In this document: in pieces, positions 4,405 through 26,325 of the stretch
Layout: each line of letters begins with the position of its first letter
Numbering within the stretch: position 1 is the first letter of the stretch
From: Paraflavisolibacter caeni
Lineage (GTDB): Bacteria; Bacteroidota; Bacteroidia; Chitinophagales; Chitinophagaceae
DNA: 43,406 bases
Assembly (NCBI RefSeq): GCF_025628885.1
Contig: NZ_JAOTIF010000037.1
Location: 1-43,406, forward strand
Reading direction: 5' to 3'
The notes under the pieces: model-generated
What the model saw: the letters and a program-made list of their open reading frames with translations, nothing else
Told to the model about the DNA's origin: nothing
Database searches by the model: none
Position numbers and translations under genes: made by a program

Positions 4405-4520
4405 AAATCAGGTTATTCTTTCGTAGATAAAAGTATTTCACTTTATGTTCCCTGACTTATGGCATATTGATTATTTCTTGTGTTATTTTGACATTTTCAT
4501 GGAAGAAATTATTAATTCCA

Positions 4521-4583
4521 TCAAATCGGCCTGATCCATATGGCTTGTCCGCCAGTAGCCGGCAAATGAGCATCTAAGGCCAG
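4521..4583 (-). pseudogene. Decayed 3' tail of a second GH97 gene
   Basis: Reading the minus strand up to a TGA at 4521-4523 gives LDAHLPATGGQAIWIRPI, nearly the same as the last residues of the intact GH97 gene at 5033-6943 (LDAKLLPSGGQAIWIRPI). The final 20 bases, 4519-4538, are identical to 5031-5050. Upstream of this tail the frame is no longer recognisable as GH97. It is the remnant of a lost or displaced GH97 copy, not an expressed gene. The intact copy lies only 512 bp away. Confidence 0.75.
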
Positions 4584-4676
4584 GAACCAAATGATGAGCA
4601 AAAACGAATGGTGGTATTGCAAAGGCTACCTGCCTGATCATATTTTAAAATTAGTTTAAGGTTCGTAATTGGTAAA

Positions 4677-4698
4677 ACGCCCCCATAGAGGGGGGCGT
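4677..4698 (-). terminator. Rho-independent terminator of the lost SusD gene
   Basis: An 8-bp GC-rich stem (ACGCCCCC pairing with GGGGGCGT) with a 6-base loop, followed by TTTT on the minus strand. It lies about 40 bp after the relic SusD stop codon. The 20 bases at 4665-4684 are identical to 11820-11839, which lead into the terminator of the intact SusD gene, so the terminator was duplicated with the gene. Confidence 0.75.
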
Positions 4699-4735
4699 AC
4701 GTATATATAATAAAAAGGGTAATGAGTATCCGGCT

Positions 4736-4882
4736 TTAATTATAGCCTTTATTCCGGATCAACTCTGCTCTTTTGTTAACCTGAATTTCAGCGTTCGGAA
4801 TAAGCAGCTTGTTGATGTGATTATCGGTAATTGAAGGGCGTGTGATCCAGGTAATTCCTGGGCATACATTTTTTCTCCAGGC
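4736..4882 (-). pseudogene. Decayed C-terminal fragment of a SusD-like gene
   Basis: The minus-strand frame ending at the TAA at 4736-4738 encodes about 48 codons ending in NKLLIPNAEIQVNKRAELI and then RNKGYN. SusD proteins end in just this way; the intact SusD here ends HINKWPIPNSEIRANTGAKL then TQNPGY. An in-frame TAG at 4883-4885 and loss of SusD similarity upstream show the rest is gone. The fragment keeps its terminator at 4677-4698, and a promoter copy lies directly upstream at 4900-4964. This suggests a deletion that removed everything between the promoter and the last codons of SusD. Confidence 0.8.
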
Positions 4883-4899
4883 CTATAAAAATGCAAGTG

Positions 4900-4964
4900 C
4901 AATATTACTTAAATACTAAAGCAGCGCCACGTCAGATTACGAAAAAAAACATTCATTTTGCGAA
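4900..4964 (-). promoter_or_regulatory. Orphan copy of the TTCGCAA direct-repeat promoter
   Basis: On the minus strand, TTCGCAA (4958-4964) and TTCGTAA (4937-4943) form direct repeats 21 bp apart around a T-rich run. After 29 nt comes TAATATTG (4900-4907), close to the Bacteroidota -7 consensus TAnnTTTG. The flanking block TACTT(A/G)AATACTAAAGC on the plus strand is shared with the promoter of the sigma/FecR/SusCD operon at 19120-19185. The copy now faces only the SusD relic, so it is probably non-functional. Confidence 0.65.
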
Positions 4965-11886: not shown

Positions 11887-13605
11887 TTAGTAACCGGGAT
11901 TCTGTGTAAGTTTCGCTCCGGTATTGGCTCTAATTTCAGAATTCGGAATAGGCCATTTATTAATGTGCGCATCCAATTTCCAACCTTGTTGAATGGCGTA
12001 TTTATTGTATTTCATAATGTATTCATGCAATTTGCCTAAACGCATCAGTGTACTCAATCGGAATTCTTCCTGGTACAATTCACGAGCACGTTCATCAAGG
12101 ATCAGATCAATGTTTACATCGCCTGCAACTACCGGTGTTGCCTGGGCTCTGTTACGAATAGCATTGATGTCTGCAGCCGCACCTACTAAATCACCTTTAT
12201 CCATTTTAGCTTCTGCTCTTAACAGATATGTTTCTGCTAAACGCATGATATACCAGTCTTTGTATGTACGACCATTGTCGTGATAATCCGGACCACGACC
12301 GGGAGCATCTGTAAATTTGTGATAGTGAACGGCAGACACCACTTTCTTGAAAGATGGCGAGCCGCGAGGTATGAACAAAGCAGGGTCGGATACGTTAGCC
12401 GCTGTCATTTTCTGACCATAAAAAACACTACTTGGGTTTGTCCAATAATATTCACGCTGAATATTGTATTGTGAGTTACGAATATCACGGTTGAAATCAC
12501 CTTTGAAATTCCAGATAGTCGAGTCAGCATATTTAGTAGCTACCAACCCTGCTGCCGGGCGTCCACCAAGTGTATCTTTTATCCAATTCAGAACGTTATT
12601 CTTATCATTATTTGCCCATGCTGCACCTCCCCACCATCTTTCCATAACAAAGAAACCACCTGATACATTCACATCTGTATTATCTCCTCCTATAATGTTA
12701 GGATCCTGTTCTATGTTCCAAATGGCTTCTCTGTTACCTTCCTTATAGTTGAGATTACCATCTTGGAATAAATCAAAATATACATCACCCCAAGCAACAG
12801 CAGGCTGATTGTGTGTATAACCACCAAACTTAAACCCTGTCCATTTACCAAAACGGGTGGTCATCAGGTTATTATTGCCGCCATCAATTACGGCAGAAGC
12901 AGCAGCAATAGCCCCATCATAATCTTTCAGACAAATATTTACTTCACTCAACAAGTGATAAGCCGCTTCGCGAGGTGCACGTCCACCCTTCGCCAAAGTA
13001 TTAATTTTAGGCATGTACTGTACTGCATACTCAAGATCGCTTTTACATTGTAAATAAACAGAATCCTGAGATGCGCGTACATAATCCAATTTAGGAGTAG
13101 TGGTTTCGTGCAATGCCAATGGCACTCCTCCATATATGTTGGCTAAAAAGTGATAACCAAAAGCTCTTAAGAACTTTGCCTCTGCAACAATAGCATTTTT
13201 ATCGGCTTCCGATCCCCATTGAGCCTGTGGCCCATCAGCTCGATCAATAATAGTATTTGCTTCAAAAATCCACCTGTATGCATGGCTCCACAATCTGCTT
13301 GCATAGCCATTATCTGCGTTAAGTGTATTCCAACTAAATATAGGGCCTAAAGCTGCACCACCATAACCATCTGCTAAATCTGCATCAATACCCATTAGGT
13401 AATAGTTATCTCTATTATCGTTTATGGCATACAAATTATTACGTACGCGTAGGTATATATCTGCCAGAGCCGACTCAAACTGACCTTTAGTAACAAAAGA
13501 GTTTTCTGGGCTGTAGAAGTCCTTTGGAACTTCATCCAGCGTTTTATTACAGGACACGAAAGCAAGCCCTGCAAAAATTGTTAATATAAGCAATATCTTT
13601 TTCAT
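11887..13605 (-). CDS. SusD/RagB-family outer-membrane glycan-binding lipoprotein
   Basis: A 572-residue lipoprotein: the leader ends in LAFVSC (Cys19), so it is anchored at the outer membrane and faces the surface. SusD proteins bind the glycan and act as a lid on their SusC partner. SusD-type tetratricopeptide-like helices are apparent at about 45-300 (for example AEAKFLRAFGYHFLANIYGG near 142-161), and the C-terminal RagB/SusD domain includes YIMRLAETYLLRAEAKMDKG, ADINAIRNRA and LDERARELYQEEFR. It begins 12 bp after SusC, and a strong terminator follows. A decayed relative lies at 4736-4882. Confidence 0.95.
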   Translation of the reverse strand: MKKILLILTIFAGLAFVSCNKTLDEVPKDFYSPENSFVTKGQFESALADIYLRVRNNLYAINDNRDNYYLMGIDADLADGYGGAALGPIFSWNTLNADNGYASRLWSHAYRWIFEANTIIDRADGPQAQWGSEADKNAIVAEAKFLRAFGYHFLANIYGGVPLALHETTTPKLDYVRASQDSVYLQCKSDLEYAVQYMPKINTLAKGGRAPREAAYHLLSEVNICLKDYDGAIAAASAVIDGGNNNLMTTRFGKWTGFKFGGYTHNQPAVAWGDVYFDLFQDGNLNYKEGNREAIWNIEQDPNIIGGDNTDVNVSGGFFVMERWWGGAAWANNDKNNVLNWIKDTLGGRPAAGLVATKYADSTIWNFKGDFNRDIRNSQYNIQREYYWTNPSSVFYGQKMTAANVSDPALFIPRGSPSFKKVVSAVHYHKFTDAPGRGPDYHDNGRTYKDWYIMRLAETYLLRAEAKMDKGDLVGAAADINAIRNRAQATPVVAGDVNIDLILDERARELYQEEFRLSTLMRLGKLHEYIMKYNKYAIQQGWKLDAHINKWPIPNSEIRANTGAKLTQNPGY

Positions 13606-13617
13606 ATACGGAATTGT

Positions 13618-16600
13618 TTAAAAATTGAATGACAACACCAATGAGTAGTTGCGAATAGATGGAATAGAGTTAACTGAAATGCCTGCACCCACTTCAGGAT
13701 CTAATCCAATCCAATAAGGAGCATAAGTAAACAGGTTGTCTGCACTTAAAGAAGCACGCATAGATTTTATACCATATTTACTTATCAAACTGCTCATATC
13801 ATAAGTAAGTGCAACTTTTTGCAACCTGATGAAGCTGCGGTCGATATATTTAGTAGCAGTTGCAGCTGCATTTTTAGAAGAAATATCAGGTCTTGGAAAA
13901 GCCGCACCGGTATTAGTAGGTGTCCAATAGTCATATACAGGTCTGTTATGAGCTTCATCGGCCACATAAGGGTCAAAATAAGGTGTGTTGCCGCCAAGGA
14001 AGTAACCATGGCCACCCCAAATTGAATTAAGAAACGCCATTAAACTCCAGTTTTTGTACGCAACTGTGTTGGTCAAACCCCATCTGAAATTTTCACGACC
14101 GGTTCCCAAAAACTGTCTGTCTTTATCAGAAGTGATATTTCCATCACCACTTACGTCTTCAATATTGTATGTACCAGGATTAAAGCCCTTCATAATAGTG
14201 CCCTTGTCTTTATCTGCCTGTTGCCACATACCTATGATTTTGTAATCATAAATAGCATTCCTATCCTTTCCTATATATAAGCCACGGCTTAAATCATCAT
14301 CTTCTTTTCCATCACCATTATTATCCTTTCCATAAATAGAAATCACTTTATTGCGGTTAAGCGTGAAAGCGAAATCCGTAGTCCATGTGAAGTCATGTTT
14401 TTGTATGTTCACAGTAGTCAATCCCAATTCAATACCTTTGTTACCAATTTTACCTACATTGACCACCGAGGAGCCAATGCCCCCTATAGCCGGTAACGTT
14501 TGTGGATTAATTAAATTTTCTGTGTATTTTGAATACAAATCCAACGAACCTGTGATTCTATTTTTCAACAATGAAAAATCTAAACCCGTATTCCAACCAA
14601 CAATAGACTCCCATACCAAATAAGGGCTTGCCATAGTGCTAATGGATTGTGTGTAGGTATAAGAATTGTCAGGATAAAAGATGTAACGGCCTCCGCCCAT
14701 ACTTGCCAATGTCTGGTAAAGGGCGATAGAGCGAGTACCATTGCTACCATAAGAAACACGAAGAGCAAGGTTATCTACAGCCTTAACATCTTCCATGAAT
14801 TTTTCTTTAGAAATATTCCAGTTAACACCAACACCAGGGAATGAAGCCCATTTATTGTCTTTACCGAAAGCAGAGTAACCATCTCTACGATAAGTTCCGG
14901 TCAATGCATACTTATTATTGAAGGTATAAGTAAGACGTCCCATGTGACCTTTACCAACTGATTCGGTACCTCCGGATGATGATGTCTGTACTGCAGCAGC
15001 CCCAATTCCATAATCCCCCAACGCTAGATTATCGAACCCTGAGCCTGACGCTGCCATTCTTTCAGAATTAGCGTTTTCGTAAGAGTTCAATAAAGTCAGG
15101 TCAACATTGTGCACACCGGCAAAGGAGCGATTGTACTTGAGGATATTGTCCACCAATCTGCTTGTACTGCGGCTGTAACCACGATTAGCTACACCATTTT
15201 TTGTCGATCCAGACATTGTTTGCAAATTATAAAAAGAACCAGACTCATTCCAATTCTGAGTTATACCTGCATTTAGTGTATAAGAAAGGCCTTGTACCCA
15301 AGGTACTTTTACCACCGCTGTTCCTATACCATTAAGACTGTTTTGACGATTATCCGCTGTAGTAGCTAGTTGCCAGAATGGGCTAACAAACGAAGTTGAG
15401 GTTTGAGGGAATTTTGCATAAGTTCCATCAGGATTAGTAACAGATGCATAAGGACTAAAGTTGTATATGCTATTACCATCGCCTAAACCGGAATATATAC
15501 GATCATCAGGATAGTTGCGATAGCTATAGCTGGTTTTTACTCCTACAGTAAGCCATTTTGCCAAATCCGTTTCCACATTTACCCTGCCGGTATAACGAGT
15601 AAATTCATCATTCAGAATTACACCACGTTGGTTGGTAAGGTTAGCCGACATGTAATAACGTGTTTTTTCAGTACGGTTAGAAACGCTTATAGTAGCATTC
15701 ATCAACTTTCCTTTCTGACGGAACAAACTGAATGGGTCGGTAACTGTTGGGGTATGATCAGCAGTAGCCTTATAATTTTTCAACTCTTCAGGCTGCAAAT
15801 AAAATTCAATCCTGTTAGGATCAGATTCTACACCTCTGTCTGCCCTTAAATCCAACAAACGTTTAATATAGCCTTGTGCATCATACACTTCCAATGGTTT
15901 CATTTGTGTACTGATACCAGAGTTAAGAACTACATCAAACTGAGGTTTACCTAAAACTTTACCTTTTTTTGTTTCAATCAAGATTACACCATTACCGGAA
16001 CGAGATCCATATACTGCAGTAGCACTTGCATCTTTTAATACGGTAAAGCTTTCAATATCCCCAGGGGCTATATCAGCCAGGTTGCCGGCAAAGATCACCC
16101 CATCGACAACTACAAGCGGGTTACTGCCGGTAGAATTTACTGAGTTGGTGCCACGAATGCTAAAGGATGGAACTTCACCGGCTTTTTGGGTACCTGATAT
16201 GTTTAAACCGGGAACAGCTCCTTTTAGTGATTCAAAAACGTTGGTCGTAGGCACTCTTTCATAAGTACTCAGTTTTGCAGTGGCCACAGCACCAGTAACG
16301 GCCTGTTTCTTTTGCGTACCATAACCAACTACCACTACATCCTGAAATAGACCCGCAGCTACATGCAGGGTAATATTCAGGTTTAATTTCCCATTAATAT
16401 TCACTTCGGCATTTTCCATTCCAACATATGAAACCACTAAAGCCGTTGCATTATTCGGAACAGTGATGATAAACTCTCCATTGGTAGTTGTTACAGTTCC
16501 TATTTTAGAACCTTTCAACATCACACTCGCGCCTACCAGCGGTTTACCATCTTCATCCTTTACCACTCCCTTTATTTCAATTTCATTGGGGGGCAGAGGA

Positions 16601-16989
16601 GCATCTTCAGTACGGGAAATGGTGATGGGTTTTGACTTTACCACCACGGTTTTTTCCATTATAGCATATCCTAAAGGCTGGCCTTTAAAACAAGCGTTTA
16701 ATGCATCTGGCAAATCAACATCCTTTAGTTCAATGGAAATACGCCCGGCATGTTGCATCATTTCATCCGTGTACAAAAATTCAAAACCGGTTTGCCTTTT
16801 GATTTCGTTAAACACTTTTTCCAGGCGGGCATTTTTTTCTGAAAGAGTTACCTTCTGTGAATATCCTGTAGCCCCTGCCGTGAGACAGGCGGAAAGTAAT
16901 AGGACAGCAATCATTTTCATAATACGTAATGTTTTGTTCAAATACCTCCTTTCTAAATCAGGAGGAGCACATGCAATCGTTAAATGCAT
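13618..16989 (-). CDS. SusC/RagA-family TonB-dependent transporter with STN domain
   Basis: A 1123-residue outer-membrane transporter importing oligosaccharides with SusD. Order of parts: leader, STN domain (about 50-110, KVFNEIKRQTGFEFLYTDEM), carboxypeptidase-regulatory-like domain (about 142-205, GVVKDEDGKPLVGASVMLKG), TonB box and plug (about 220-340, DVVVVGYGTQKK), and a beta-barrel ending in ...YSLVLSFNF. The STN domain implies signalling through FecR to the ECF sigma factor encoded just upstream. The longest start is at 16989; many family members instead begin near the MKM at 16920, which puts the signal peptide (IAVLLLSACLTAGATGYSQ) at the N-terminus. The true start is uncertain between these. 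Confidence 0.95.
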   Translation of the reverse strand: MHLTIACAPPDLERRYLNKTLRIMKMIAVLLLSACLTAGATGYSQKVTLSEKNARLEKVFNEIKRQTGFEFLYTDEMMQHAGRISIELKDVDLPDALNACFKGQPLGYAIMEKTVVVKSKPITISRTEDAPLPPNEIEIKGVVKDEDGKPLVGASVMLKGSKIGTVTTTNGEFIITVPNNATALVVSYVGMENAEVNINGKLNLNITLHVAAGLFQDVVVVGYGTQKKQAVTGAVATAKLSTYERVPTTNVFESLKGAVPGLNISGTQKAGEVPSFSIRGTNSVNSTGSNPLVVVDGVIFAGNLADIAPGDIESFTVLKDASATAVYGSRSGNGVILIETKKGKVLGKPQFDVVLNSGISTQMKPLEVYDAQGYIKRLLDLRADRGVESDPNRIEFYLQPEELKNYKATADHTPTVTDPFSLFRQKGKLMNATISVSNRTEKTRYYMSANLTNQRGVILNDEFTRYTGRVNVETDLAKWLTVGVKTSYSYRNYPDDRIYSGLGDGNSIYNFSPYASVTNPDGTYAKFPQTSTSFVSPFWQLATTADNRQNSLNGIGTAVVKVPWVQGLSYTLNAGITQNWNESGSFYNLQTMSGSTKNGVANRGYSRSTSRLVDNILKYNRSFAGVHNVDLTLLNSYENANSERMAASGSGFDNLALGDYGIGAAAVQTSSSGGTESVGKGHMGRLTYTFNNKYALTGTYRRDGYSAFGKDNKWASFPGVGVNWNISKEKFMEDVKAVDNLALRVSYGSNGTRSIALYQTLASMGGGRYIFYPDNSYTYTQSISTMASPYLVWESIVGWNTGLDFSLLKNRITGSLDLYSKYTENLINPQTLPAIGGIGSSVVNVGKIGNKGIELGLTTVNIQKHDFTWTTDFAFTLNRNKVISIYGKDNNGDGKEDDDLSRGLYIGKDRNAIYDYKIIGMWQQADKDKGTIMKGFNPGTYNIEDVSGDGNITSDKDRQFLGTGRENFRWGLTNTVAYKNWSLMAFLNSIWGGHGYFLGGNTPYFDPYVADEAHNRPVYDYWTPTNTGAAFPRPDISSKNAAATATKYIDRSFIRLQKVALTYDMSSLISKYGIKSMRASLSADNLFTYAPYWIGLDPEVGAGISVNSIPSIRNYSLVLSFNF

Positions 16990-17137: not shown

Positions 17138-18346
17138 CTAGGGCGTAACTGTTATTCGCTTTCCTTCAATTTTAAAATGAATGACACCGGTAGCCTCCAG
17201 CATTTTAAACAACTCCGAAACTTCTTCTTCCCTTTGAATGCTTCCACGAAAATGCTGATCCATTGGTTTACCTTCATAAATAACCTCGACATCGTACCAC
17301 CTGCTCACCTGTCGCATAATTTCTTCAATACCAACTCCCCCAAATTGAAATCGGCCATTCTTCCATGCCATTATTTCTTCCAGGTCAACATCCTTGACAA
17401 TTTTTATATTTGAGGAAACCTGTGCCTGTTCCCCAGGACTTAACAGTTCACTTGCATTATTTTTATTGATGCGTACAGCCCCTTCCAGCAGCGTAACCTT
17501 TACATCCGGCTCATCCGCATAGCTGTTCACATTAAAATGCGTTCCCAATACTTCCGTAACCACGCCATTGGCCTCCACCTTAAAAGGACGCTTTTGGCCT
17601 CCCGATTGCGAGGAAAAAGAGGTGGTCACTTCAAAATAAGCTTCCCCGGTTATAGACACTTTTCGCTCGTTGCTAGTAAAGGCCACGGGATAAGTAAGCG
17701 CAGAACCGGCATTGAGCCAAACACGGGTGCCATCAGAAAGACTTATCGTTGCAACCTGGCTTCCTCTTGGATTGAACAAGGTATTGTATTGAATTTCCTT
17801 AATCGTTTCCCCACTTTCAGTTTTGTAAACGATTTCACCCGAGGCCAGCTTCACCAGTTTTACATGATCCTGCACAACTAAATGCCCACTGTTGATACTA
17901 TCGAGATATACCGTGTTACCGTCAGCCAGGGTAATCATGGCCCGATTCGATACCGGGGCCTTTACATCTGTGGCTGAGGGCTGGTTACGGCTGATTGCTG
18001 GTTCATCCTTTCGATTCGGGATCATAGTGTAGATAAGGCCGAGGGTAACAACCATGACGGCTACAGCAGCAACACGCCACCACTTGTTGGCAGGCATCAA
18101 CGGTACAACGGGTGCTTCTTCCGTTTTCATCCCGGTCTTATGATGAATTTGCTGCAATAAAGCCTGCGCCATTTGATTATTGCCTGCGTGCCCTTTTGAA
18201 AGATTGGCTAAATAATCTCCCGCAAAATATTGTTGGAGCTCGGCTGGCGATTTTGTCTGAAGCAACTCAAGAAACCACTCGTGTTCTTCGGATGTCCATT
18301 CTTTTTTGCTGAATAAATGTGCCAGCCTGGTTTCTATATTTTCCAA
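17138..18346 (-). CDS. FecR-family anti-sigma factor
   Basis: A 402-residue inner-membrane regulator. The cytoplasmic N-terminal part (1-85) would hold the ECF sigma factor. One membrane segment follows at about 88-110 (WWRVAAVAVMVVTLGLIYTM), then a periplasmic FecR domain (about 150-290, with NTLFNPRGSQVATISLSDGT and VWLNAGSALTYP) and a C-terminal DUF4974 domain (about 320-402, GVGIEEIMRQVSRWYDVEVI), which receives the signal from the STN domain of SusC. It lies 62 bp after the sigma gene and 148 bp before SusC, the standard order for trans-envelope control of a SusCD pair. Confidence 0.94.
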   Translation of the reverse strand: MENIETRLAHLFSKKEWTSEEHEWFLELLQTKSPAELQQYFAGDYLANLSKGHAGNNQMAQALLQQIHHKTGMKTEEAPVVPLMPANKWWRVAAVAVMVVTLGLIYTMIPNRKDEPAISRNQPSATDVKAPVSNRAMITLADGNTVYLDSINSGHLVVQDHVKLVKLASGEIVYKTESGETIKEIQYNTLFNPRGSQVATISLSDGTRVWLNAGSALTYPVAFTSNERKVSITGEAYFEVTTSFSSQSGGQKRPFKVEANGVVTEVLGTHFNVNSYADEPDVKVTLLEGAVRINKNNASELLSPGEQAQVSSNIKIVKDVDLEEIMAWKNGRFQFGGVGIEEIMRQVSRWYDVEVIYEGKPMDQHFRGSIQREEEVSELFKMLEATGVIHFKIEGKRITVTP

Positions 18347-18408: not shown

Positions 18409-19026
18409 TTAAAAAAAATGGTCGCCCAAAATAATAACCAGCAGTAAGGCAATCTTTTTTTGCATTCCTTGAGTATGGAACTGCATGTAAGAATGGATCG
18501 TTTCCCTGGCCCGGGCAAGATGGTCTTTGACCGTATTTTTGGAAATTGCGAGTTCGGTTGCGGTCTCATCATAACTCTTGCCCTGGAAGCGGCAAAGCTC
18601 AAACACCCTGCGGCGATGAGGCGGCAATTGGGCTATGGCCTCTTCCAGCAGCCTCAACTGCATTTCCTGGTAGGCATCTTCCAGGGGCCAGTGCGTCATT
18701 TCATCCACCTTCGCCAAAGTCTTTTGCCGCAGGCGCTCTACCGACAGGTTGCGCAAATAATTCAGGGCACAATTATGACTGGTTACAAAAAGCCAACCGC
18801 TGATCTTTTCATACGAAGCAAATTTTTCTCTTTTCTCCCACAAACAGATGAAAACCTCCTGCAAAATATCATCGGTCACGGCATCATCCCTTGTAATTTT
18901 CAGGATATTCAACCGAACCGGTTCATAATACCGGTAATACAACTCGTCGAAAGCTGCTGCTGACCCCTGCGAAAGTTGCCGCAGAAGTAGTGACTCTGTA
19001 TGATAGTTTTCGAGGGTCAAATCCAT
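18409..19026 (-). CDS. ECF RNA polymerase sigma-70 factor
   Basis: A 205-residue ECF sigma factor of the Bacteroidota type. Region 2 spans about 25-95 (TDDILQEVFICLWEKREKF, WLFVTSHNCALNYLRN). Region 4 spans about 130-185 (LPPHRRRVFELCRFQGKSYD, ISKNTVKDHLARARETI). The hydrophobic C-terminal tail ending LLLVIILGDHFF is common in sigma factors linked to SusCD loci. It would direct transcription of its own operon when SusC signals bound glycan through FecR. The promoter upstream also carries an AraC-type direct repeat (19120-19185), so expression appears to answer to two regulators. Confidence 0.95.
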   Translation of the reverse strand: MDLTLENYHTESLLLRQLSQGSAAAFDELYYRYYEPVRLNILKITRDDAVTDDILQEVFICLWEKREKFASYEKISGWLFVTSHNCALNYLRNLSVERLRQKTLAKVDEMTHWPLEDAYQEMQLRLLEEAIAQLPPHRRRVFELCRFQGKSYDETATELAISKNTVKDHLARARETIHSYMQFHTQGMQKKIALLLVIILGDHFF

Positions 19027-19119: not shown

Positions 19120-19185
19120 CAAAAATACTTGAATACTAAAGCTCAGCTATGGCAGATTGCGAAAAAAAAACATGCATTTTGCGAA
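19120..19185 (-). promoter_or_regulatory. TTCGCAA direct-repeat promoter of the sigma/FecR/SusCD operon
   Basis: Read on the minus strand: TTCGCAA (19179-19185) and TTCGCAA (19157-19163), spaced 22 bp start to start across a T-rich run; then 29 nt; then TATTTTTG (19120-19127), a full match to the Bacteroidota -7 element TAnnTTTG. The sigma gene starts 94 bp further on. No TTG is found at the expected -33 position, as often seen where an activator is needed. Direct repeats two helical turns apart are the usual site layout for AraC-type activators; the binding factor is inferred. Confidence 0.68.
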
Positions 19186-19256
19186 CACCCAATTGGAGAT
19201 CAGCGGTCATTTTCTGCCATTTTCTGCCAAAACGGCCACAGGGGGTGGGGAATAAC

Positions 19257-21023
19257 TTAGCTCTTATTCACTATATTTCTATACTTGTCTACCGAAGCTC
19301 CCATACCTTTTGTCTTATAATATTTAGGACCAATAAACACAAAAGCATAAGGCTTATACAGTGTAGCGCAGGATGGATTTTGCTTTTTAAGGTCTTCATA
19401 TAGCTTCCAGTAGCGATCGTAGTTTGCAATAGCCACTTTTATTTTTTCTTTATTGTAAACACCGGTTTTATCTCCTTCAAAACCCATTGCCATAATATTC
19501 CACCCTTCGGCAATGATCTGATGCAATAACAAACCATAATGTGAAGACACCTTCACGTATGTCTGATCCTCTTTATTGGTCATAGATACATTCCGGCTTA
19601 AAGCTACTATCTTCTTCCACATCTCTACTGCTTCAAACTTCTCATCAACGGCCTTCTGCAATAATCCCTTTTGATAATAGTTTGAAAATGCCCCGTACAG
19701 CACTCCTTCAGAAGGAGCAGGGCCCTCCCCCTCGGGATCTATACCGGCAAGGAACTCATCTCTCATCCACCACGTCCAGCCCTTTGTAGAAGGCAGAACT
19801 GCACTAAAATGCCCCCTCAACACAGCTTGTGCAGACAGCAGGCACAATTCCCGGAATGCTTTGCGAGACTTTCCTTTGATACCTTGTTCATCCATAAAAT
19901 GGTTGAACACCTCTTCTTCAGTTTGGTTTGTATTGGCTCCCCAATGACTAATTACATAAGCATTGAGCTTACACCAAAATTCATTGGTAATATATGGCCC
20001 TACCCAACCGCCACCACGACTCCAGCTCCAAACACCTTTGAAGTTGGGACTATTTTTGATATCATTGAGTGATTGATACCCTTTTTGTGGCGTATTTGTA
20101 TGATATTCTTCAAAGCCATTGATCACTCCATTCATCACATAATTGGGATATGCCTCCTTTCCTTCATACTCCCGCTGGCATTGCACTTCTACAATCTGAG
20201 GATGGTTACCGAGTGTTAAGGTTGGATTGAAATCAAAGGTTCTGAGATAATCACCCTTGGTGTGTTTGATCGAGAAAATCAATTGGGGGTGTGGAGCGAT
20301 TTGATTGACGACATTCAAATAATAATCAGGATTTTCATGCATGCCACCAAAAGACCATGTTCGATAAAAGATGGTCTTGTTTCTCTTCACACAAACTTCC
20401 TCTCTTAATAAATTCAGGAGTTTGATATGACTTTGCTCCTTGTTTGTAATGGGATTATTTCCTGTATGATAGGGTACGTTGTTTAAATAAGTTTCCCCTG
20501 TGCGTATTACTAATCCATCCAGTTCAGGAAAGGTTTCAAACAATTCATCCAGCATTATTTTATGTACTTCTAGTGTTTTGGGGCGCTCAAACGATATGCG
20601 ACCTTGATTATCGCAAATTTCATCACGATACAATTCCACCAGCTTTTTAGGCAACACAATGATATCTGTAAAATAATATACCTTGATGCCGGCTTTATGG
20701 GCGGCCTTGATGTTTTGACGTACCCGCTCTGCCGCATCCATCACCCACTTCCATTCTGCAGAACCTTCGGGGAAGATATCCGGATTCAGCTTTTTAAAGG
20801 TAACGGCAGCATGAGCAAAAGTAAAATCATTGATAACCTGGCCTGTATAGCCACCTGCGGCTAACATTCCCGGATCATTAAAAACGGATTTTGTTAATGG
20901 CTCACCCGGGTTATTGTGAACCATATCTAAAATATAAGGTCCATTTTTCTCCTGTGAAATAGCTTTCAGGATTAAAGAACTCACCAGAATAGTGAACAAT
21001 AATTTCAATAAATGAGCATTCAT
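19257..21023 (-). CDS. Secreted alpha-glucuronidase-like TIM-barrel protein, function unproven
   Basis: A 588-residue secreted protein (signal peptide LVSSLILKAISQ). I do not recognise it with certainty. The region 60-330 alternates strands and helices like a TIM barrel (AAHKAGIKVYYFTDIIVLP, ELDGLVIRTGETYLN). The QCQREYEGKEAYPNYVM segment and the later WSWSRGGGWVGPYITNEFW are reminiscent of GH67/GH115 alpha-glucuronidases, and the C-terminal third is helical. A role in removing glucuronic acid from side chains would suit the locus. It lies directly upstream of the sigma-factor promoter, and a trace of a second copy (4997-5023) sits in the same place before the orphan promoter, so the linkage seems old. 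Its closest family should be tested by structure prediction. Confidence 0.6.
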   Translation of the reverse strand: MNAHLLKLLFTILVSSLILKAISQEKNGPYILDMVHNNPGEPLTKSVFNDPGMLAAGGYTGQVINDFTFAHAAVTFKKLNPDIFPEGSAEWKWVMDAAERVRQNIKAAHKAGIKVYYFTDIIVLPKKLVELYRDEICDNQGRISFERPKTLEVHKIMLDELFETFPELDGLVIRTGETYLNNVPYHTGNNPITNKEQSHIKLLNLLREEVCVKRNKTIFYRTWSFGGMHENPDYYLNVVNQIAPHPQLIFSIKHTKGDYLRTFDFNPTLTLGNHPQIVEVQCQREYEGKEAYPNYVMNGVINGFEEYHTNTPQKGYQSLNDIKNSPNFKGVWSWSRGGGWVGPYITNEFWCKLNAYVISHWGANTNQTEEEVFNHFMDEQGIKGKSRKAFRELCLLSAQAVLRGHFSAVLPSTKGWTWWMRDEFLAGIDPEGEGPAPSEGVLYGAFSNYYQKGLLQKAVDEKFEAVEMWKKIVALSRNVSMTNKEDQTYVKVSSHYGLLLHQIIAEGWNIMAMGFEGDKTGVYNKEKIKVAIANYDRYWKLYEDLKKQNPSCATLYKPYAFVFIGPKYYKTKGMGASVDKYRNIVNKS

Positions 21024-21081
21024 ATTGATAGTAATCCCCGGTACTCTTAAAGTTTTAACTAATTGAAAGAATGTGGCTGTT

Positions 21082-22359
21082 CTATTGTACTACTGCCATC
21101 TTTTTGTTCTTCATGAAAAAAAATAATCCTGTAAATGCAACGATCAGAGCAAGGGGTATTACTAAAGTAGCATTCAGGATTTCAGGTCCGGCAGCTTTGT
21201 TTGCCGCAGCTAAAGCAGTTTTCATTTCCAGCGTAGCTTCCATTGAATTATATAATTTCAAATCGGCACCTGCAGGAAGATTTTTTGCAATGAGTTGATC
21301 ATAGAAGCTTCCCATGAACATCATGTATAATGAAACAGCAAACATACCGGCTCCGCCAATAAGATTTAATCCTACGGCTCCCGTCTTCGGTAAATATTCT
21401 GACACAAAACCTAACATGGTTGGCCAGAAATAACAAACGCCCATACCAAAGATGATGGCTCCGAAAAATATCATATTGCCTGATGTATTACCAAGCAGGT
21501 ACAATCCAAATGCAGAAAGAATAGCAGACATCAATAACACACCATGAGGTGCCAGTTTATGCACAATTGGTCCTGCAAAAGCTCGTCCCAATGCCATTAC
21601 ACCTGTTGACACGGTAAGAATCAGAATTGCATTACCCGAAACATTTCTTAACAAGACATCGATCCATTGCCCGGTAAATAATTCTGTAATAGCAGTGCCA
21701 AACATGCAAATAATCATAAAAATGAATAAAGGGTTGGCCAATGAACGGTACATTTCAGACGTGGAGATGCCACTGGCAACTCTTTCAGTAACAGGAAATT
21801 TTTGTTTGGCAAATAATACTCCATAGAGTAAGGCAGGAATGAGCATCATTGCCACCTGCATTTGCCAGCTGATAGCAGCTTGATTAAAGAAATAGACAAT
21901 CAGTGTTCCAATCACGATCCCTCCCGGAAACCATAAATGAAAATGATTGAGTTTGGTTGTTTTATTGTCGGGATATAATGCAGTAACTAATGGGTTGCAG
22001 GCAGCCTCCACCGTACCATTAGCGATCCCTATCAGCAGGGTGGAAATAAATAATGCCCAATACGGGCTACTGAATTTGTCTGCAGCATAAGTAAGGAGTA
22101 TACCAGCCATGTGAAAAACAAATGCAAGTATTAGTAGACGTTTCATGCCAATCACATCTACGATCATCCCGCCAATAATTACGGCCAGAGGAAATCCCCA
22201 GAATGCCGAGGCAGTTATAGAGCTCAATTCTGCTTTATCCAGGTTAAATTCAATACCCAACCGGCTGAGAATACCGGCGCGAATACCAAAGGAGAGCGAT
22301 GTTACCAGTAGAGCCAGGCAACTGGCAATAAAAAGTTGATTTCGGTTTAAAGCTTGCAT
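21082..22359 (-). CDS. MFS transporter, probable sugar or sugar-acid importer
   Basis: A 425-residue inner-membrane protein with about 12 hydrophobic helices in two halves, a long cytoplasmic loop near residue 195-210, and a charged C-terminus (FFFMKNKKMAVVQ). The MFS loop 2-3 signature is visible as GGMIVDVIGMKRLLI near residue 63-77. The half-repeat MALGRAFAGPIVHKLAPHGV appears near 256-275. It does not show the typical FucP sequence pattern. Position between an alpha-glucuronidase-like gene and regulators suggests import of a monosaccharide or uronate released by this locus. The substrate is not deducible from sequence. Confidence 0.85.
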   Translation of the reverse strand: MQALNRNQLFIASCLALLVTSLSFGIRAGILSRLGIEFNLDKAELSSITASAFWGFPLAVIIGGMIVDVIGMKRLLILAFVFHMAGILLTYAADKFSSPYWALFISTLLIGIANGTVEAACNPLVTALYPDNKTTKLNHFHLWFPGGIVIGTLIVYFFNQAAISWQMQVAMMLIPALLYGVLFAKQKFPVTERVASGISTSEMYRSLANPLFIFMIICMFGTAITELFTGQWIDVLLRNVSGNAILILTVSTGVMALGRAFAGPIVHKLAPHGVLLMSAILSAFGLYLLGNTSGNMIFFGAIIFGMGVCYFWPTMLGFVSEYLPKTGAVGLNLIGGAGMFAVSLYMMFMGSFYDQLIAKNLPAGADLKLYNSMEATLEMKTALAAANKAAGPEILNATLVIPLALIVAFTGLFFFMKNKKMAVVQ

Positions 22360-22399
22360 ATCGTTGTATTAGTGGCTAAATATAAACATCCTATCAGAA

Positions 22400-22522
22400 T
22401 TATTTTTTGGCAGCAGAAATATTTTCTTTTCTTTCCCTGATTGCTTTCAACCATAATTGAGCGAAAGCCTTCATTCCATACTCAGAAAAATGCACACTAT
22501 CATAACGGTGGATAGCATAATA
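22400..22522 (-). pseudogene. Decayed C-terminus of an SGNH/GDSL esterase
   Basis: The minus-strand frame ending at TAA 22400-22402 reads YDSVHFSEYGMKAFAQLWLK, then about 14 more residues. DSVHFSEYG matches block V of SGNH hydrolases, where D-xx-H supplies two catalytic residues, and the following helix (MKAFAQLWLKAI) is typical of sialate O-acetylesterase-like enzymes. The frame is closed by a TAG at 22523-22525, and no matching N-terminal part exists between here and the regulator gene. It is the 3' remnant of a lost carbohydrate esterase. Confidence 0.72.
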
Positions 22523-22559
22523 CTAATAATTTGCGCATGAAATTGTTTTTTCTCATTAA

Positions 22560-23720
22560 CTATGCTTTCCTGAATTGTCTACGGTATTCCAGGGGCTTCC
22601 AACCAGTATATTGCTTAAAATACCTGGTGATGTTATCAAAACTTTTGAAGTTCAGTTCAGAGGCGATCTGCTGCAGACTCAATTCAGAATGGGTCAGCAG
22701 GTACTTGATCCGCTCAATCCTTACCTTCCTGATTTCATCCAGTATCGAGCTTCTGACCAGCAATTGAAACCTCTTCTCCAAAATACGGCGCGATAAGGAA
22801 GTAGCCCTTACCACATCAACCACAGATATATCTTGTGAAGGTGCGGTAGTGGCAATGTAATGCAAGGCTGTGCGCACCTGCTCATCATCAATAGCCAGTG
22901 CATTGGTGGAATTCCTGGCAATAATTGTTAAAGGCTTTACTACAATGTCGCCAGCGGGCTTTTCGCCGGTTTCTATCCACTGGCCCAAAGCCGATGCAGC
23001 CAGGAAACCAGCGTGCCGGGCATTGTGATCGATACTGGATAAGGTGGGCGTAGTCATTTCACATACCATCGTATCATTATCCACTCCGATTATGGAAAAG
23101 TCATCCGGCACCCTGGCGGCACATTGTTTGGCCGCTTCCAGTAGAGGAATATTCAATTCATCGGTCGCTGTGAAAATGGCGCAGGGCCTTTGGAGCGTAG
23201 ACAGCCATTTGGTGAGCCTTTCGGACAGGTGTTCCCACAACAATGTGGTATGATCATACAGAAAAGCATTTACGCTACAGCCGGCTTGTTTCGCTGCTTC
23301 CATGTAGCCTTGCTGCCTCTCCAATGACCACTGAAAATCTTTAAATCCCAAAAAGGCAAAATGCTTATATCCTTTTGAAATGAAATGCCCAGCCGCCATT
23401 TCACCAATGGCCATATTGTCGCCCCATACATTGATGTGGTCTTTGTACAGGTTGGTATGCGGAAAGATAATGAGGGGGATGCCCAGGTGGAGCAGGCTTT
23501 CAAAGCCTTCAACCTCCCTGGTAAGAATACCATCAGGCTGCCAGGCTTTGAGGCGCTCCACTAGCATCTTTTGACTTTGCTTATCTACATATTTAGGGGT
23601 ATAGAAGAAGAACTGGAACTTATCATAAATCCTGTTGAAACTGGTAATGCCTGTCAGTACATCCCTGTCATAAGTTCGTGAAACATCTACCAGGACCGCT
23701 ATTTTCAGATCATTCTTCAC
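22560..23720 (-). CDS. XylR-like AraC-family regulator with sugar-binding domain (copy 1)
   Basis: A 386-residue cytoplasmic regulator. Residues 1-275 form a LacI/periplasmic-binding-type ligand domain (LKIAVLVDVSRTYDRDVLTG; CAIFTATDELNIPLLEAAKQ; FSIIGVDNDTMVCEMTTPTL). Residues about 285-386 form an AraC double helix-turn-helix (SLSRRILEKRFQLLVRSSIL; LSLQQIASELNFKSFDNITR). This layout is that of XylR: the sugar binds the N-terminal domain and the protein activates by binding direct repeats. It uses a GTG start at 23718-23720, as does its paralogue at 24975-26144, with which it shares most residues and a 135-bp identical DNA stretch. The dioxygenase gene lies between the two. Confidence 0.92.
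   Translation of the reverse strand: MKNDLKIAVLVDVSRTYDRDVLTGITSFNRIYDKFQFFFYTPKYVDKQSQKMLVERLKAWQPDGILTREVEGFESLLHLGIPLIIFPHTNLYKDHINVWGDNMAIGEMAAGHFISKGYKHFAFLGFKDFQWSLERQQGYMEAAKQAGCSVNAFLYDHTTLLWEHLSERLTKWLSTLQRPCAIFTATDELNIPLLEAAKQCAARVPDDFSIIGVDNDTMVCEMTTPTLSSIDHNARHAGFLAASALGQWIETGEKPAGDIVVKPLTIIARNSTNALAIDDEQVRTALHYIATTAPSQDISVVDVVRATSLSRRILEKRFQLLVRSSILDEIRKVRIERIKYLLTHSELSLQQIASELNFKSFDNITRYFKQYTGWKPLEYRRQFRKA
22683..22817. repeat. 135-bp identical segment shared by the two regulator genes (copy 1)
   Basis: Bases 22683-22817 are identical to 25107-25241 in the same orientation, while flanking sequence of the same genes differs at many positions. The segment encodes the first helix-turn-helix and the linker to the second, so DNA recognition is the best conserved part. 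Selection on this domain alone would not keep silent positions identical, so recent gene conversion or a patchy duplication is more likely. Confidence 0.85.
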
Positions 23721-23842
23721 TTTGTAAATTATTTATGCATTATCTGCTAAAAACCCTCTCTAATTGCTAGCAACCAGAAAGGGCTTTACCTATTTTGAGA
23801 AAACGATACAGGATTTACCTGGTAAGTTTTACAGATAAGGAT

Positions 23843-24817
23843 CTATCGAACCTCGTATAACATTTTTGCATTTACCTTAGGCACATGGTTGATCATGGAT
23901 TCCAACTCCTTATCTCCATCAAATAAAAGAGGGAAGAAATTACTGTCCAGGATCTGGTCTTGTGGCATCGCAGGAAAACTGTGTAATGCATCCATCCTTT
24001 CATAACCTTCCGTATTGCCCAATGTACCATCCGCCATTGCATTCAACACAACCGCTCTCCTGGGCCTTTCTGAATAATTGGCATAAGAGCCATGCATCAT
24101 CAAGGGGTGATGGAAACTTGCATAGCCTTTTGGCAACTCATTTGCTACTTTTTTATCAAAGATTGTTACCTGCTCTTCACTTAACACTGTCCTTACCGAT
24201 TCCATGTCACCTGTCAATCCTGTAATGGGCAGCAGACCCCAGTTATGGCTACCGGGCACATAATAAAGACAGCCATTCTCTGTTGTGGCATCGTCCAGGC
24301 CGATCCAGCAGGTCAGGTGATGCATGGGTTTGGTAAAGGTCCAATAAGAATAATCCTGGTGCCAGGCCACCACGCCCCCATGTTTGGCTGGTTTACAAAA
24401 TAACTGGTCATGAAAAAGCCTGAAGGATTGCCCCAGTAGTTGATAGGCAGCCATTCGATAGGCAGGTGACCAAATCAGGTCGTGAAATCCTGGAGTTACC
24501 CGCCAGGCACCTATGGCATGAAACAGCACCTTGTTGGGATCTTCAGATTCGTTGCTTTCATAATGGTAAAATAATTTTTTTTCCCTGGCGTCTATAGCCT
24601 GTAATCTTTCCAATTCTTCATTCAGCACATCCACCTGCTCATCAGTCAGTATCTGAATGCCTGAGATAAAGCCGTTTTCCTGGAAGAAAGCGACCTGCTC
24701 TTCACTCAGCATATATTGTTCCCACTCCTTTGCATTGGTTGGCTGTTCAAAAAGGTTGGCAATAGGGCTGCTATAATTTGCCAGATCAAAAGATAACTTT
24801 GGTTCTAATACATTCAT
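23843..24817 (-). CDS. Phytanoyl-CoA dioxygenase (PhyH) family Fe(II)/2-oxoglutarate oxygenase
   Basis: A 324-residue protein without signal peptide, so cytoplasmic. The iron triad is H153 and D155 (AWHQDYSYW) with H242 (HHPLMMHGSYANYS), and R251 or R253 (SERPRRAVV) should bind 2-oxoglutarate. The GCLYYVPGSHNWG segment is standard for PhyH-type enzymes. These hydroxylate or oxidatively remove groups from small molecules; the substrate here is unknown. It is enclosed by two XylR-like regulators and carries the same promoter module (24842-24906) as the sigma/FecR/SusCD operon, so it appears to be part of the glycan response. Oxidative demethylation of a methylated sugar is one possibility, not shown by sequence. 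Confidence 0.87.
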   Translation of the reverse strand: MNVLEPKLSFDLANYSSPIANLFEQPTNAKEWEQYMLSEEQVAFFQENGFISGIQILTDEQVDVLNEELERLQAIDAREKKLFYHYESNESEDPNKVLFHAIGAWRVTPGFHDLIWSPAYRMAAYQLLGQSFRLFHDQLFCKPAKHGGVVAWHQDYSYWTFTKPMHHLTCWIGLDDATTENGCLYYVPGSHNWGLLPITGLTGDMESVRTVLSEEQVTIFDKKVANELPKGYASFHHPLMMHGSYANYSERPRRAVVLNAMADGTLGNTEGYERMDALHSFPAMPQDQILDSNFFPLLFDGDKELESMINHVPKVNAKMLYEVR

Positions 24818-24841
24818 GATCGTTGATTTATAAGTTCAAGA

Positions 24842-24906
24842 GCAAATTAGTGGTATGCTCTGGCAGTACATAGACAGATTGCGAAAAAAAACAGTCATTT
24901 TGCGAA
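24842..24906 (-). promoter_or_regulatory. TTCGCAA direct-repeat promoter of the dioxygenase gene
   Basis: On the minus strand, TTCGCAA at 24900-24906 and at 24879-24885 are spaced 21 bp start to start. A 29-nt gap leads to TAATTTGC (24842-24849), a near match to the -7 element one base short in its spacer. The dioxygenase ATG follows 24 bp later. Repeat, T-run and 29-nt gap are the same as at 19120-19185, though the gap sequence itself differs, so the shared positions look functional. Confidence 0.68.
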
Positions 24907-24974: not shown

Positions 24975-26144
24975 TCAGCTTGATTCAGCCTGTCTGAATT
25001 GACTGCGGTATTCCAGGGGCTTGATACCGGTATACTGTCTGAAATACCTGGTAATGTTTTCAAAACTCCTGAAGTTCAGTTCAGAGGCGATCTTTTGAAC
25101 TGAAAGTTCAGAATGGGTCAGCAGGTACTTGATCCGCTCAATCCTTACCTTCCTGATTTCATCCAGTATCGAGCTTCTGACCAGCAATTGAAACCTCTTC
25201 TCCAAAATACGGCGCGATAAGGAAGTAGCCCTTACCACATCTTCAACACCAATATCTTCTGAAGGCGCAGTAGAGGCGATGTAGTGTAAAGCAATTCTTA
25301 CCTGCTCGTCATCTACACTCCATGCCATTGTCGAATTCCTGGCAATAATTTTTAAAGGCTTTACTACAATGTCGCCAGATGGCTTTTCGCCGGTTTCTAT
25401 CCACTGGCAAATAGTCAATGCCGCCTGGAAGCCAGCCTGGCGGACTTCAGGCTCTATGCTAGACAATGTTGGACTGGTCATTTCACATACCATCGTATCG
25501 TTATCCACTCCGATAATGGAAAAGTCATCCGGCACCCTGGCGTCACATTGTTTGGCCGCTTCCAGCAGAGGAATATTCAATTCATCATTAGCCGAGAAAA
25601 TGGCACAGGGCCTTTGCAGCGCAGACAGCCATTCGACGAGCCTTTCGGACAGGTGCTCCCACAACAATGTGGTATTATCATACAGAAAAGCATTTACGCT
25701 ACAGCCGGCTTGCTTCACTGTTTCCATGTAGCCTTGCAGCCTTTCCTGAGACCACTGAAAGTCCTTGAATCCCAAAAAAGCAAAATGCTTATATCCTTTT
25801 GAAATGAAGTGGCCAGCCGCCATCTCACCGATGGCCTTATTATCCGGCCATACATTGATATGGTCTTTGTACAAGTTGGTCTGAGGAAACATGATGAGCG
25901 GAATATTCAACTTCAGGAGACTTTCAAACCCCTTTATTTCTCTTGTTAAAATACCATCGGGCTGCCAGGATTTGATCCGGCTCACTATCTTTTTTTGATT
26001 TTGCTCATCTACATATTTAGGAGTATAGAAGAAGAACTGGAACTTATCATAAATCCTGTTGAAACGAGTAATGCCCGCCAGTACATCCCTGTCAAAGCCT
26101 CTGGAGATGTCAACCAGGACCACAATTTTCAGCTTCTTTTTCAC
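24975..26144 (-). CDS. XylR-like AraC-family regulator with sugar-binding domain (copy 2)
   Basis: A 389-residue paralogue of the regulator at 22560-23720, with the same layout: ligand-binding domain (1-275, LKIVVLVDISRGFDRDVLAG; FSIIGVDNDTMVCEMTSPTL) and C-terminal AraC DNA-binding domain (285-389, SLSRRILEKRFQLLVRSSIL; LSVQKIASELNFRSFENITR). Start is GTG at 26142-26144, matching the paralogue. Differences are spread over the ligand domain (for example DRDVLAGITRFNRIY against DRDVLTGITSFNRIY), while the first HTH is identical, so the two may answer different or related sugars but read the same operator. It ends 68 bp before the direct repeat of the dioxygenase promoter. Confidence 0.92.
   Translation of the reverse strand: MKKKLKIVVLVDISRGFDRDVLAGITRFNRIYDKFQFFFYTPKYVDEQNQKKIVSRIKSWQPDGILTREIKGFESLLKLNIPLIMFPQTNLYKDHINVWPDNKAIGEMAAGHFISKGYKHFAFLGFKDFQWSQERLQGYMETVKQAGCSVNAFLYDNTTLLWEHLSERLVEWLSALQRPCAIFSANDELNIPLLEAAKQCDARVPDDFSIIGVDNDTMVCEMTSPTLSSIEPEVRQAGFQAALTICQWIETGEKPSGDIVVKPLKIIARNSTMAWSVDDEQVRIALHYIASTAPSEDIGVEDVVRATSLSRRILEKRFQLLVRSSILDEIRKVRIERIKYLLTHSELSVQKIASELNFRSFENITRYFRQYTGIKPLEYRSQFRQAESS
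25107..25241. repeat. 135-bp identical segment shared by the two regulator genes (copy 2)
   Basis: Second copy of the stretch described for 22683-22817, in direct orientation and about 2.4 kb away. With the dioxygenase gene between them, recombination across the two copies would remove that gene and fuse the regulators. Confidence 0.85.
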
Positions 26145-26232: not shown

Positions 26233-26256
26233 AAGTTAATAATTCATAATACACTG

Positions 26257-26306
26257 AATAGTACATAAAAAAGCAAAGAATGAACTTTGCTTTTTTATGT
26301 ACTATT
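26257..26306. terminator. Long perfect hairpin, terminator after the fucosidase gene
   Basis: A 22-bp perfect inverted repeat (26257-26278 with 26285-26306) around a 6-base loop. The inner stem GCAAAG/CTTTGC is followed by six T on either strand, the usual terminator layout. It lies 19 bp after the GH29 stop and closes the 26326-33804 enzyme run. It also separates that run from the regulator gene. Confidence 0.88.
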
Positions 26307-26325
26307 CTTATAAAAACGTTTGCTA

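Follow-up and report, generated by a model that had tools for sequence, protein, structure and literature searches.

Three short elements on the minus strand of a glycan-degradation region of Paraflavisolibacter caeni (assembly GCF_025628885.1, contig NZ_JAOTIF010000037.1, positions 1 to 43,406; this whole stretch of 43,406 nucleotides is called the window) raise the question of what they do and which protein reads them. An earlier interpretation made from the letters alone (the sequence-only reading) had taken them for a shared promoter module of an AraC-type activator and had named two adjacent XylR-like proteins, here reg1 and reg2, as the regulators. This proposal gained support from the co-occurrence of sites and regulator among genomes, from sites flanking the regulator gene in relatives, and from the distance to a promoter box at 12 of 14 sites outside the model used for scanning. 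With a probability of roughly 0.85, the XylR-like regulators of the same locus use each site as an operator-promoter, predicted from sequence to serve class II activation of a glycan regulon and of the regulator operon. The sites and their boxes are listed below (E values refer to model R1, described later, in the own genome).

Site A, 4933..4964 (read 4964 to 4933), minus strand: direct repeat TTCGCAAAATG-N10-TTCGTAATCTG with a 21-bp period, E 1.0e-6.
Site B, 19153..19185 (read 19185 to 19153), minus strand: direct repeat with one extra T and a 22-bp period, E 3.8e-4.
Site C, 24875..24906 (read 24906 to 24875), minus strand: direct repeat with a 21-bp period, E 1.4e-7.
-7-like box of site A, 4900..4907 (read 4907 to 4900), minus strand: TAATATTG, 29 nt past the half-site.
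-7-like box of site B, 19120..19127 (read 19127 to 19120), minus strand: TATTTTTG.
-7-like box of site C, 24842..24849 (read 24849 to 24842), minus strand: TAATTTGC, TAnnTTGY type.

The letters of the sites are TTCGCAAAATG-AATGTTTTTT-TTCGTAATCTG (A), TTCGCAAAATG-CATGTTTTTTT-TTCGCAATCTG (B) and TTCGCAAAATG-ACTGTTTTTT-TTCGCAATCTG (C), and the three minus-strand sites with half-sites 21, 22 and 21 bp apart across a T-run were thus present as the sequence-only reading had described them. The TA of the box begins 29 nt past the second TTCGYAA at all three sites; at site C the gap between TA and TTG is one base shorter than in TAnnTTTG, and TTG lies at 33 (C) or 34 (A and B). The genome-wide scan proposed as a check was carried out with the pattern TTCGNAANNTG-N9..12-TTCGNAANNTG on 7,014,184 bases (7.0 Mb) of the own genome and gave three matches, all within the window, and the control pattern read backward gave none in the same genome. 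The form TTCGCAA-N12..18-TTCGCAA, which matches B and C, was matched in 0 of 100 shuffles of the window.

The two candidate regulators are encoded on either side of the gene for a PhyH-type dioxygenase that follows site C.

reg2, 22560..23720, minus strand: XylR-like regulator with Peripla_BP_3 and HTH_18, in the PhyH-regulator position that is conserved in relatives.
reg1, 24975..26144, minus strand: XylR-like regulator with Peripla_BP_3 and HTH_18/AraC, related to E. coli XylR over its full length.

Both proteins have the XylR-type domain order, Peripla_BP_3 followed by a C-terminal HTH_18/AraC domain, and are 83% identical overall and 88% identical in the DNA-binding part. A PDB sequence search with reg1 matched the E. 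coli XylR structure 4fe4_A over residues 3-381 (E 1.3e-36). In the regulator tree the window pair was supported at 98/99, two outgroup rows with extreme branches (one of them, G141, taken from a locus on the minus strand and hence probably read on the wrong strand) being disregarded. As expected of a XylR-type system, direct-repeat sites stand before adjacent sugar genes and track the regulator across genomes.

Orthologues of reg1 (at least 59% identity, hereafter 'regulator-bearing') were found in 6 of 394 genomes of the family, the own genome included, and also in Terrimonas pollutisoli (Chitinophagaceae). Within the genus, relatives of reg1 occurred in 2 of 18 genomes, own included, and outside the family none was found at E ≤ 1e-90 among 395 phylum-wide genomes, the own genome apart. 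In relatives' loci, direct repeats of the same kind adjoin the regulator genes: all six regulator-bearing family genomes have a site before a PhyH gene that lies directly upstream of the regulator gene, and four (G353, G109, G180 and G009) have an additional site behind the regulator. The additional site precedes GH92 in G353, a sugar transporter in G109 and on contig C8 of G180, a 290-aa protein weakly PhyH-like by blastp on contig C3 of G180, and, in G009, a SASA esterase (contig C1) and a 504-aa protein without domain scan (contig C4). In Terrimonas, PhyH is encoded in the same locus as the regulator, but after susCD.

The plain TTCGNAANNTG-type pattern was matched in 10 of the 394 family genomes, own included; matches in seven of them (G227, G236, G257, G282, G317, G320 and G342) came without a regulator match and were taken as chance. 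Besides the own genome, G055 and G009 contain the T-tract form of the window-derived pattern, and both belong to the 5 regulator-bearing genomes among the remaining 393 (p 1.3e-4), this form having been chosen by the analyst among nine pattern genomes; with all nine, 2/9 are regulator-bearing (p 0.0045).

Model R1 was built from 16 relatives' sites (all that qualified in L024-L033) and no window site, with the -7 region left outside. Sites qualified with half-sites 21 or 22 bp apart, each agreeing in at least 7 of 9 positions with the window-derived word. Two training sites score 14 and 15 of 18 (L029:12157 and L031:9743), scores of 14-15 being reached 48 times in 1.31 Mb of mononucleotide shuffles and scores of at least 16 never. 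Score-14 matches in the window other than A-C (29277, 18946 and 34058) and in L034 (12585 and 19019) were dropped as chance, as were matches at 20 or 23 bp (including score 15 in L026 and L029) and any with a half-site below 7. A single score-15 match at 22 bp in L035 of G223 (9783, half-sites 7 and 8) is not part of R1.

Applied to the own genome, R1 recovered C (1.4e-7), A (1.0e-6), B (3.8e-4) and a fourth site on contig C67 (3.8e-4):

Fourth site, contig C67:166803-166835 (L066:10001-10032), outside the window: box TACCTTTA at 29 nt.

A SusC/SusD pair begins 67 nt downstream of this site; behind the pair come a 696-aa protein that has no Pfam match and a protein of beta-helix/GH141-like type. 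In the window, neither the region before reg1 nor the one separating reg2 from the downstream MFS transporter gene held a further site, the fourth-best window match having 7.5 bits vs 23.6 for site B. In 14 comparison genomes without a close orthologue (two with homologues at 32-34% identity) no match reached 1e-3 (best, 0.007). Over all 394 genomes, scanned with stricter filters by which weak matches were lost, R1 at 1e-3 gave matches in 6 of 6 regulator-bearing genomes (31 matches) vs 2 of 388 others (p 5.6e-12, partly circular as discussed below). In the 2 regulator-less genomes the matches were both inside open reading frames (ORFs), and the surrounding 19-kb stretches showed no relative of the regulator. 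The 17 matches that are not training sites were distributed over G000 (4), G009 (8), G109 (3), G353 (1) and G180 (1), and after removal of the training sites and the own genome, 4 of 5 regulator-bearing genomes vs 2 of 388 remained (p 7.6e-8). A chance origin of the window sites was ruled out by the shuffles, the genome-wide scan, the box distance and this co-occurrence with the regulator.

Site anatomy was compared over 33 sites (3 from the window, 16 from the model and 14 further ones). The repeat unit is longer than TTCGCAA, about TTCGCAAAATGAC in the first and TTCGCAAACTGACA in the second position, and the profile reads about TTCGCAAAATGAC-tG-TTTTTT-TTCGCAAACTGACA, the T-tract being about as conserved as the half-sites. 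The period is 21 bp in 30 sites and 22 bp in 3. All 33 face the same way as the next ORF (which in one case is 1.2 kb away), and only four (L072, L073, L074 and L075) overlap an ORF of at least 100 aa, though such ORFs hold 87% of the bases. Many matches in coding DNA, which the sequence-only reading had named as evidence against a promoter module, were therefore not observed, although the plain pattern also turned up without the regulator in 7 of 394 genomes.

A box beginning 28-30 nt past the second TTCGCAA was found at 29 of the 33 sites (3/3 window, 14/16 model, 12/14 further), vs about 1% in 3-nt windows elsewhere in the 160 nt downstream (1/144, 4/768 and 9/672, respectively); the classes counted, TAnnTTT[GA], TAnnTTG and TAnnnTTG, were defined after all 33 sites had been seen. 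A criterion fixed ahead of reading the further sites, TTG at position 33 or 34, held for 7 of the 14 (background, 5.2%; p 2.5e-6), and also for 13 of 16 model sites; TA at 29 or 30 occurred in 13 of the 14. The classes were distributed as TAnnTTGY (16), TAnnTTGR (4), TAnnTTTR (7), TAnnnTTG (2) and none (4); for comparison, Bacteroidota sigmaA promoters have a TAnnTTTG -7 box. The spacing of 'exactly 29 nt' proposed earlier holds for all three window sites, and over the 33 sites widens to a start at 29 or 30; this spacing and the proposed 'TAnnTTTG-like' box are both slightly too strict, site C being TAnnTTGY. The observation that the stretch between half-site and box at site C has kept its length and not its sequence was reproduced, there being little conservation of this stretch over the 33 sites at constant length. 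Twenty of the 33 boxes are TAnnTTG, one base shorter than TAnnTTTG. In 211 upstream regions, TAnnTTTG and TAnnTTGC were counted 25 vs 18 times (sense/antisense) and 17 vs 10 times, respectively, too weak a difference to name a standard box.

In Bacteroidota promoters a -33 element usually lies 18-22 nt before the TA. At this distance 0 TTTG and one TTG were found in the 29 boxed sites. Motif SM5 of Flavobacterium psychrophilum has a TAnnTTGY box, and the section concerned considers an alternative sigma factor likely for it (PMC9723704). The SM5 promoters resemble the 16 TAnnTTGY boxes here, in which the gap from TA to TTG is one base shorter than in TAnnTTTG; they differ in that this section connects SM5 neither with an AraC-type activator nor with a named sigma factor (PMC9723704), and the boxes here are mixed (7 TAnnTTTR). 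The box of F. psychrophilum spans -12 to -5 there (PMC9723704). If the same holds here, the proximal 11-mer would end near -38 from the transcript start so placed, and the pair would cover about -38 to -69, near where AraC sits at araBAD. Because of this position and the lack of a -33 element, the arrangement corresponds to the class II AraC-type layout, in which the proximal half-site lies beside the -35 region at a fixed distance to the -10/-7 box, the true start being a prediction.

On this basis, a dimer with a LacI-type sugar-binding and an AraC-type DNA-binding domain would sit on two half-sites TTCGCAAAMTGAC that face the same way and are separated by two helical turns, with the T-tract between them. 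From the end of the proximal half-site, beside the expected -33 position, it would be about 25 nt to the TAnnTT(T)G-type -7 box, and the bound dimer could hold RNA polymerase there. Site C would drive PhyH and reg2; as it lies upstream of both, positive autoregulation (self-amplification) of reg2 is predicted. Site B would drive an operon of extracytoplasmic function (ECF) sigma factor, FecR and SusCD, and site A may formerly have driven a susCD-GH97 copy, today reduced to a relic. A sugar freed by the glycan enzymes of the locus is the probable ligand. GH92 and GH38 among the relatives' targets suggest alpha-mannosides there; the window has fucosidase, GH20, GH97 and GH109 in their place.

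E. coli XylR and Vibrio XylRA act on two direct repeats before sugar genes and activate them, in the part of the source concerned (PMC12125979); they share with the window proteins the domain order and full-length similarity (4fe4, 4fe7). The repeats described there are AT-rich (PMC12125979), whereas the sites here have the half-site TTCGCAAAMTGAC and a conserved T-tract. No xylose isomerase or xylulokinase gene was found among the 26 window proteins scanned, and so the neighbourhood is not that of a XylR orthologue, the targets here being PhyH, susCD, ECF sigma/FecR and GH92/GH38 glycosidases. At araBAD, AraC occupies the two same-facing half-sites I1 and I2, 21 bp apart with the proximal one beside the -35 region, in class II activation; half-site and sensor domain differ from those here, where the box is a Bacteroidota -7 box. 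Mechanism and regulator type are already known, and the regulon is new. In the literature searched, which left most subscription papers outside its scope, no description of its motif and gene set was found, and a text search for TTCGCAAAATG returned only papers with unrelated titles.

Three other explanations were weighed. The sites might be read by some other protein of AraC type, for instance a hybrid two-component system (HTCS), with the XylR-like genes as mere neighbours, and the HTCS regulons of Bacteroides thetaiotaomicron indeed combine an AraC-type DNA-binding domain with direct repeats at an average distance of 21 bp before polysaccharide genes, as given in the part of the source concerned (PMC3878776). 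There, however, periplasmic sensor, kinase and receiver are joined in one chain and the spacer is non-conserved (PMC3878776), whereas a one-piece XylR-type protein and a conserved T-tract occur here. The domain scan of reg1 and reg2 gave no kinase and no receiver, so that neither has the HTCS architecture, no HTCS domains were found in the 26 scanned proteins of the window (a count that did not extend to HTCS genes in relatives), and the sites track the XylR-like gene across genomes; this explanation is very improbable. That the XylR-like protein binds the sites as a repressor released by sugar is suggested by its PDB sequence matches, which are mostly LacI-type proteins with several named repressors. 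The site, however, ends about 25 nt before the -7 box without overlap, the lack of a -33 element at 18-22 nt points to a need for an activator, and E. coli XylR and Vibrio XylRA are described as activators in the source cited above for them (PMC12125979), and repression appears unlikely.

The flanking DNA common to A and B (82% over 77 nt and 93% over 30 nt) could come from a dispersed repeat or a recent duplication that plays no part in regulation, C having only a module of 33-35 nt in common with them. In an ungapped comparison of flanks, however, identity above 60% was found in only 3 of 528 site pairs, each between two genomes, the separate box keeps its distance, all 33 sites are co-oriented with the next ORF, and the site tracks a protein. 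A dispersed repeat was rejected on the flank comparison, although A and B are copies, and is scarcely credible.

Activation by the XylR-like regulators of the locus is thus preferred, with several points to be set against it. Sites A and B look like copies and are not independent, reg1 has no site in front, and 4 of the 33 sites lack a box of the classes used. The two regulator homologues at 32-34% identity (G141 and G223) have no such sites, and their inclusion would make sites present in 6 of 8 genomes. As the R1 training sites were found with the half-site word of the window, recovery of the window sites was partly expected, and since 5 of the 6 regulator-bearing genomes supplied training sites (14 of the 31 matches), the 6 of 6 and its p value of 5.6e-12 are partly circular. 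The co-occurrence p values also treat related genomes as independent, the six genomes representing three genera.

The other features of the window concerned here are as follows.

PhyH-type dioxygenase gene behind site C, 23843..24817, minus strand.
MFS transporter gene downstream of reg2, 21082..22359, minus strand.
Gene for a 588-aa protein without Pfam or NCBIfam match, 19257..21023, minus strand.
ECF sigma factor gene, first behind site B, 18409..19026, minus strand.
FecR, SusC and SusD genes after the ECF sigma gene, 17138-18346, 13618-16989 and 11887-13605, minus strand.
Relic downstream of site A, 4405..4930, minus strand: SusD-like and GH97-like C-terminal stretches in different frames.

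Read along the minus strand, the order is alpha-L-fucosidase, reg1, site C, PhyH dioxygenase, reg2, MFS transporter, 588-aa protein and site B, then ECF sigma factor, FecR, SusC, SusD, beta-helix protein, GH88-type, DUF2264, GH97 and site A, and finally the relic, aldo/keto reductase, MR_MLE protein, sodium:solute symporter and rhaM-type mutarotase. Between the fucosidase and reg1 genes, a 52-nt stretch (26256-26307) matches its own reverse complement at 91% and is possibly a terminator or operator.

The proposal that a relic lies behind one of the sites was borne out. Compared with a limited protein set, the relic contains two such stretches: one resembles the C-terminal end of SusD (57% over 28 aa), and the other, which lies further along and in a different frame, the GH97 C-terminus of a relative (88% over 17 aa) and of the window (78% over 18 aa). 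The relic is perhaps a trace of a deleted second susCD-GH97 copy. The aldo/keto reductase gene begins 529 nt downstream of site A.

Among the 33 sites, the next gene encodes PhyH at 6 and SusC directly at 6 (four by blastp only). At three places (B, L067:8265 and L068:7046) it encodes an ECF sigma factor or a 204-aa protein, and the genes for FecR and SusC come next. Other next genes encode GH92 (3), GH38, GH95, SASA esterase, MFS sugar transporter, ROK and LytTR proteins, and several proteins without family match or not scanned. The site at L072:1881-1912 lies 74 nt upstream of the gene for the LytTR DNA-binding protein, a possible further regulator in the regulon.

The relatives of the PhyH dioxygenase are 74-82% identical, and in the six family genomes its gene stands directly upstream of a regulator gene; the presence of an oxygenase in the core of a glycan regulon calls for an explanation. 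For the 588-aa protein no PDB sequence match was found either, and its relatives, 78-82% identical, are encoded near sites in G109, G353, G009 and G180. Its predicted structure (mean predicted local distance difference test score, pLDDT, 60) shows weak likeness to GH138, GH84 and GH20 enzymes with template modelling scores (TM-scores) below 0.5, a hint of a glycosidase and possibly a candidate for an undescribed glycosidase family.

The sites before a sigma-like (or same-size) gene, FecR and SusC at three places also bear on a bolder scheme of two-key glycan import, in which a cytoplasmic XylR-type sugar activator would switch on an ECF sigma/anti-sigma pair reading a surface signal for the same susCD, with promoters preferring the shortened TAnnTTG box read by a factor other than sigmaA; as a whole we consider it improbable. 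For relatives of Terrimonas (Chitinophagaceae), the putative class II regulon supplies a gene list for glycan use together with a DNA code and a regulator, and promoter/regulator pairs are offered for experiments. The PhyH dioxygenase and the 588-aa protein without Pfam match are likely members of an unknown sugar pathway, and the scheme would link cytoplasmic sugar sensing of AraC type with the control of SusCD by ECF sigma/FecR, two layers that are mostly studied separately.

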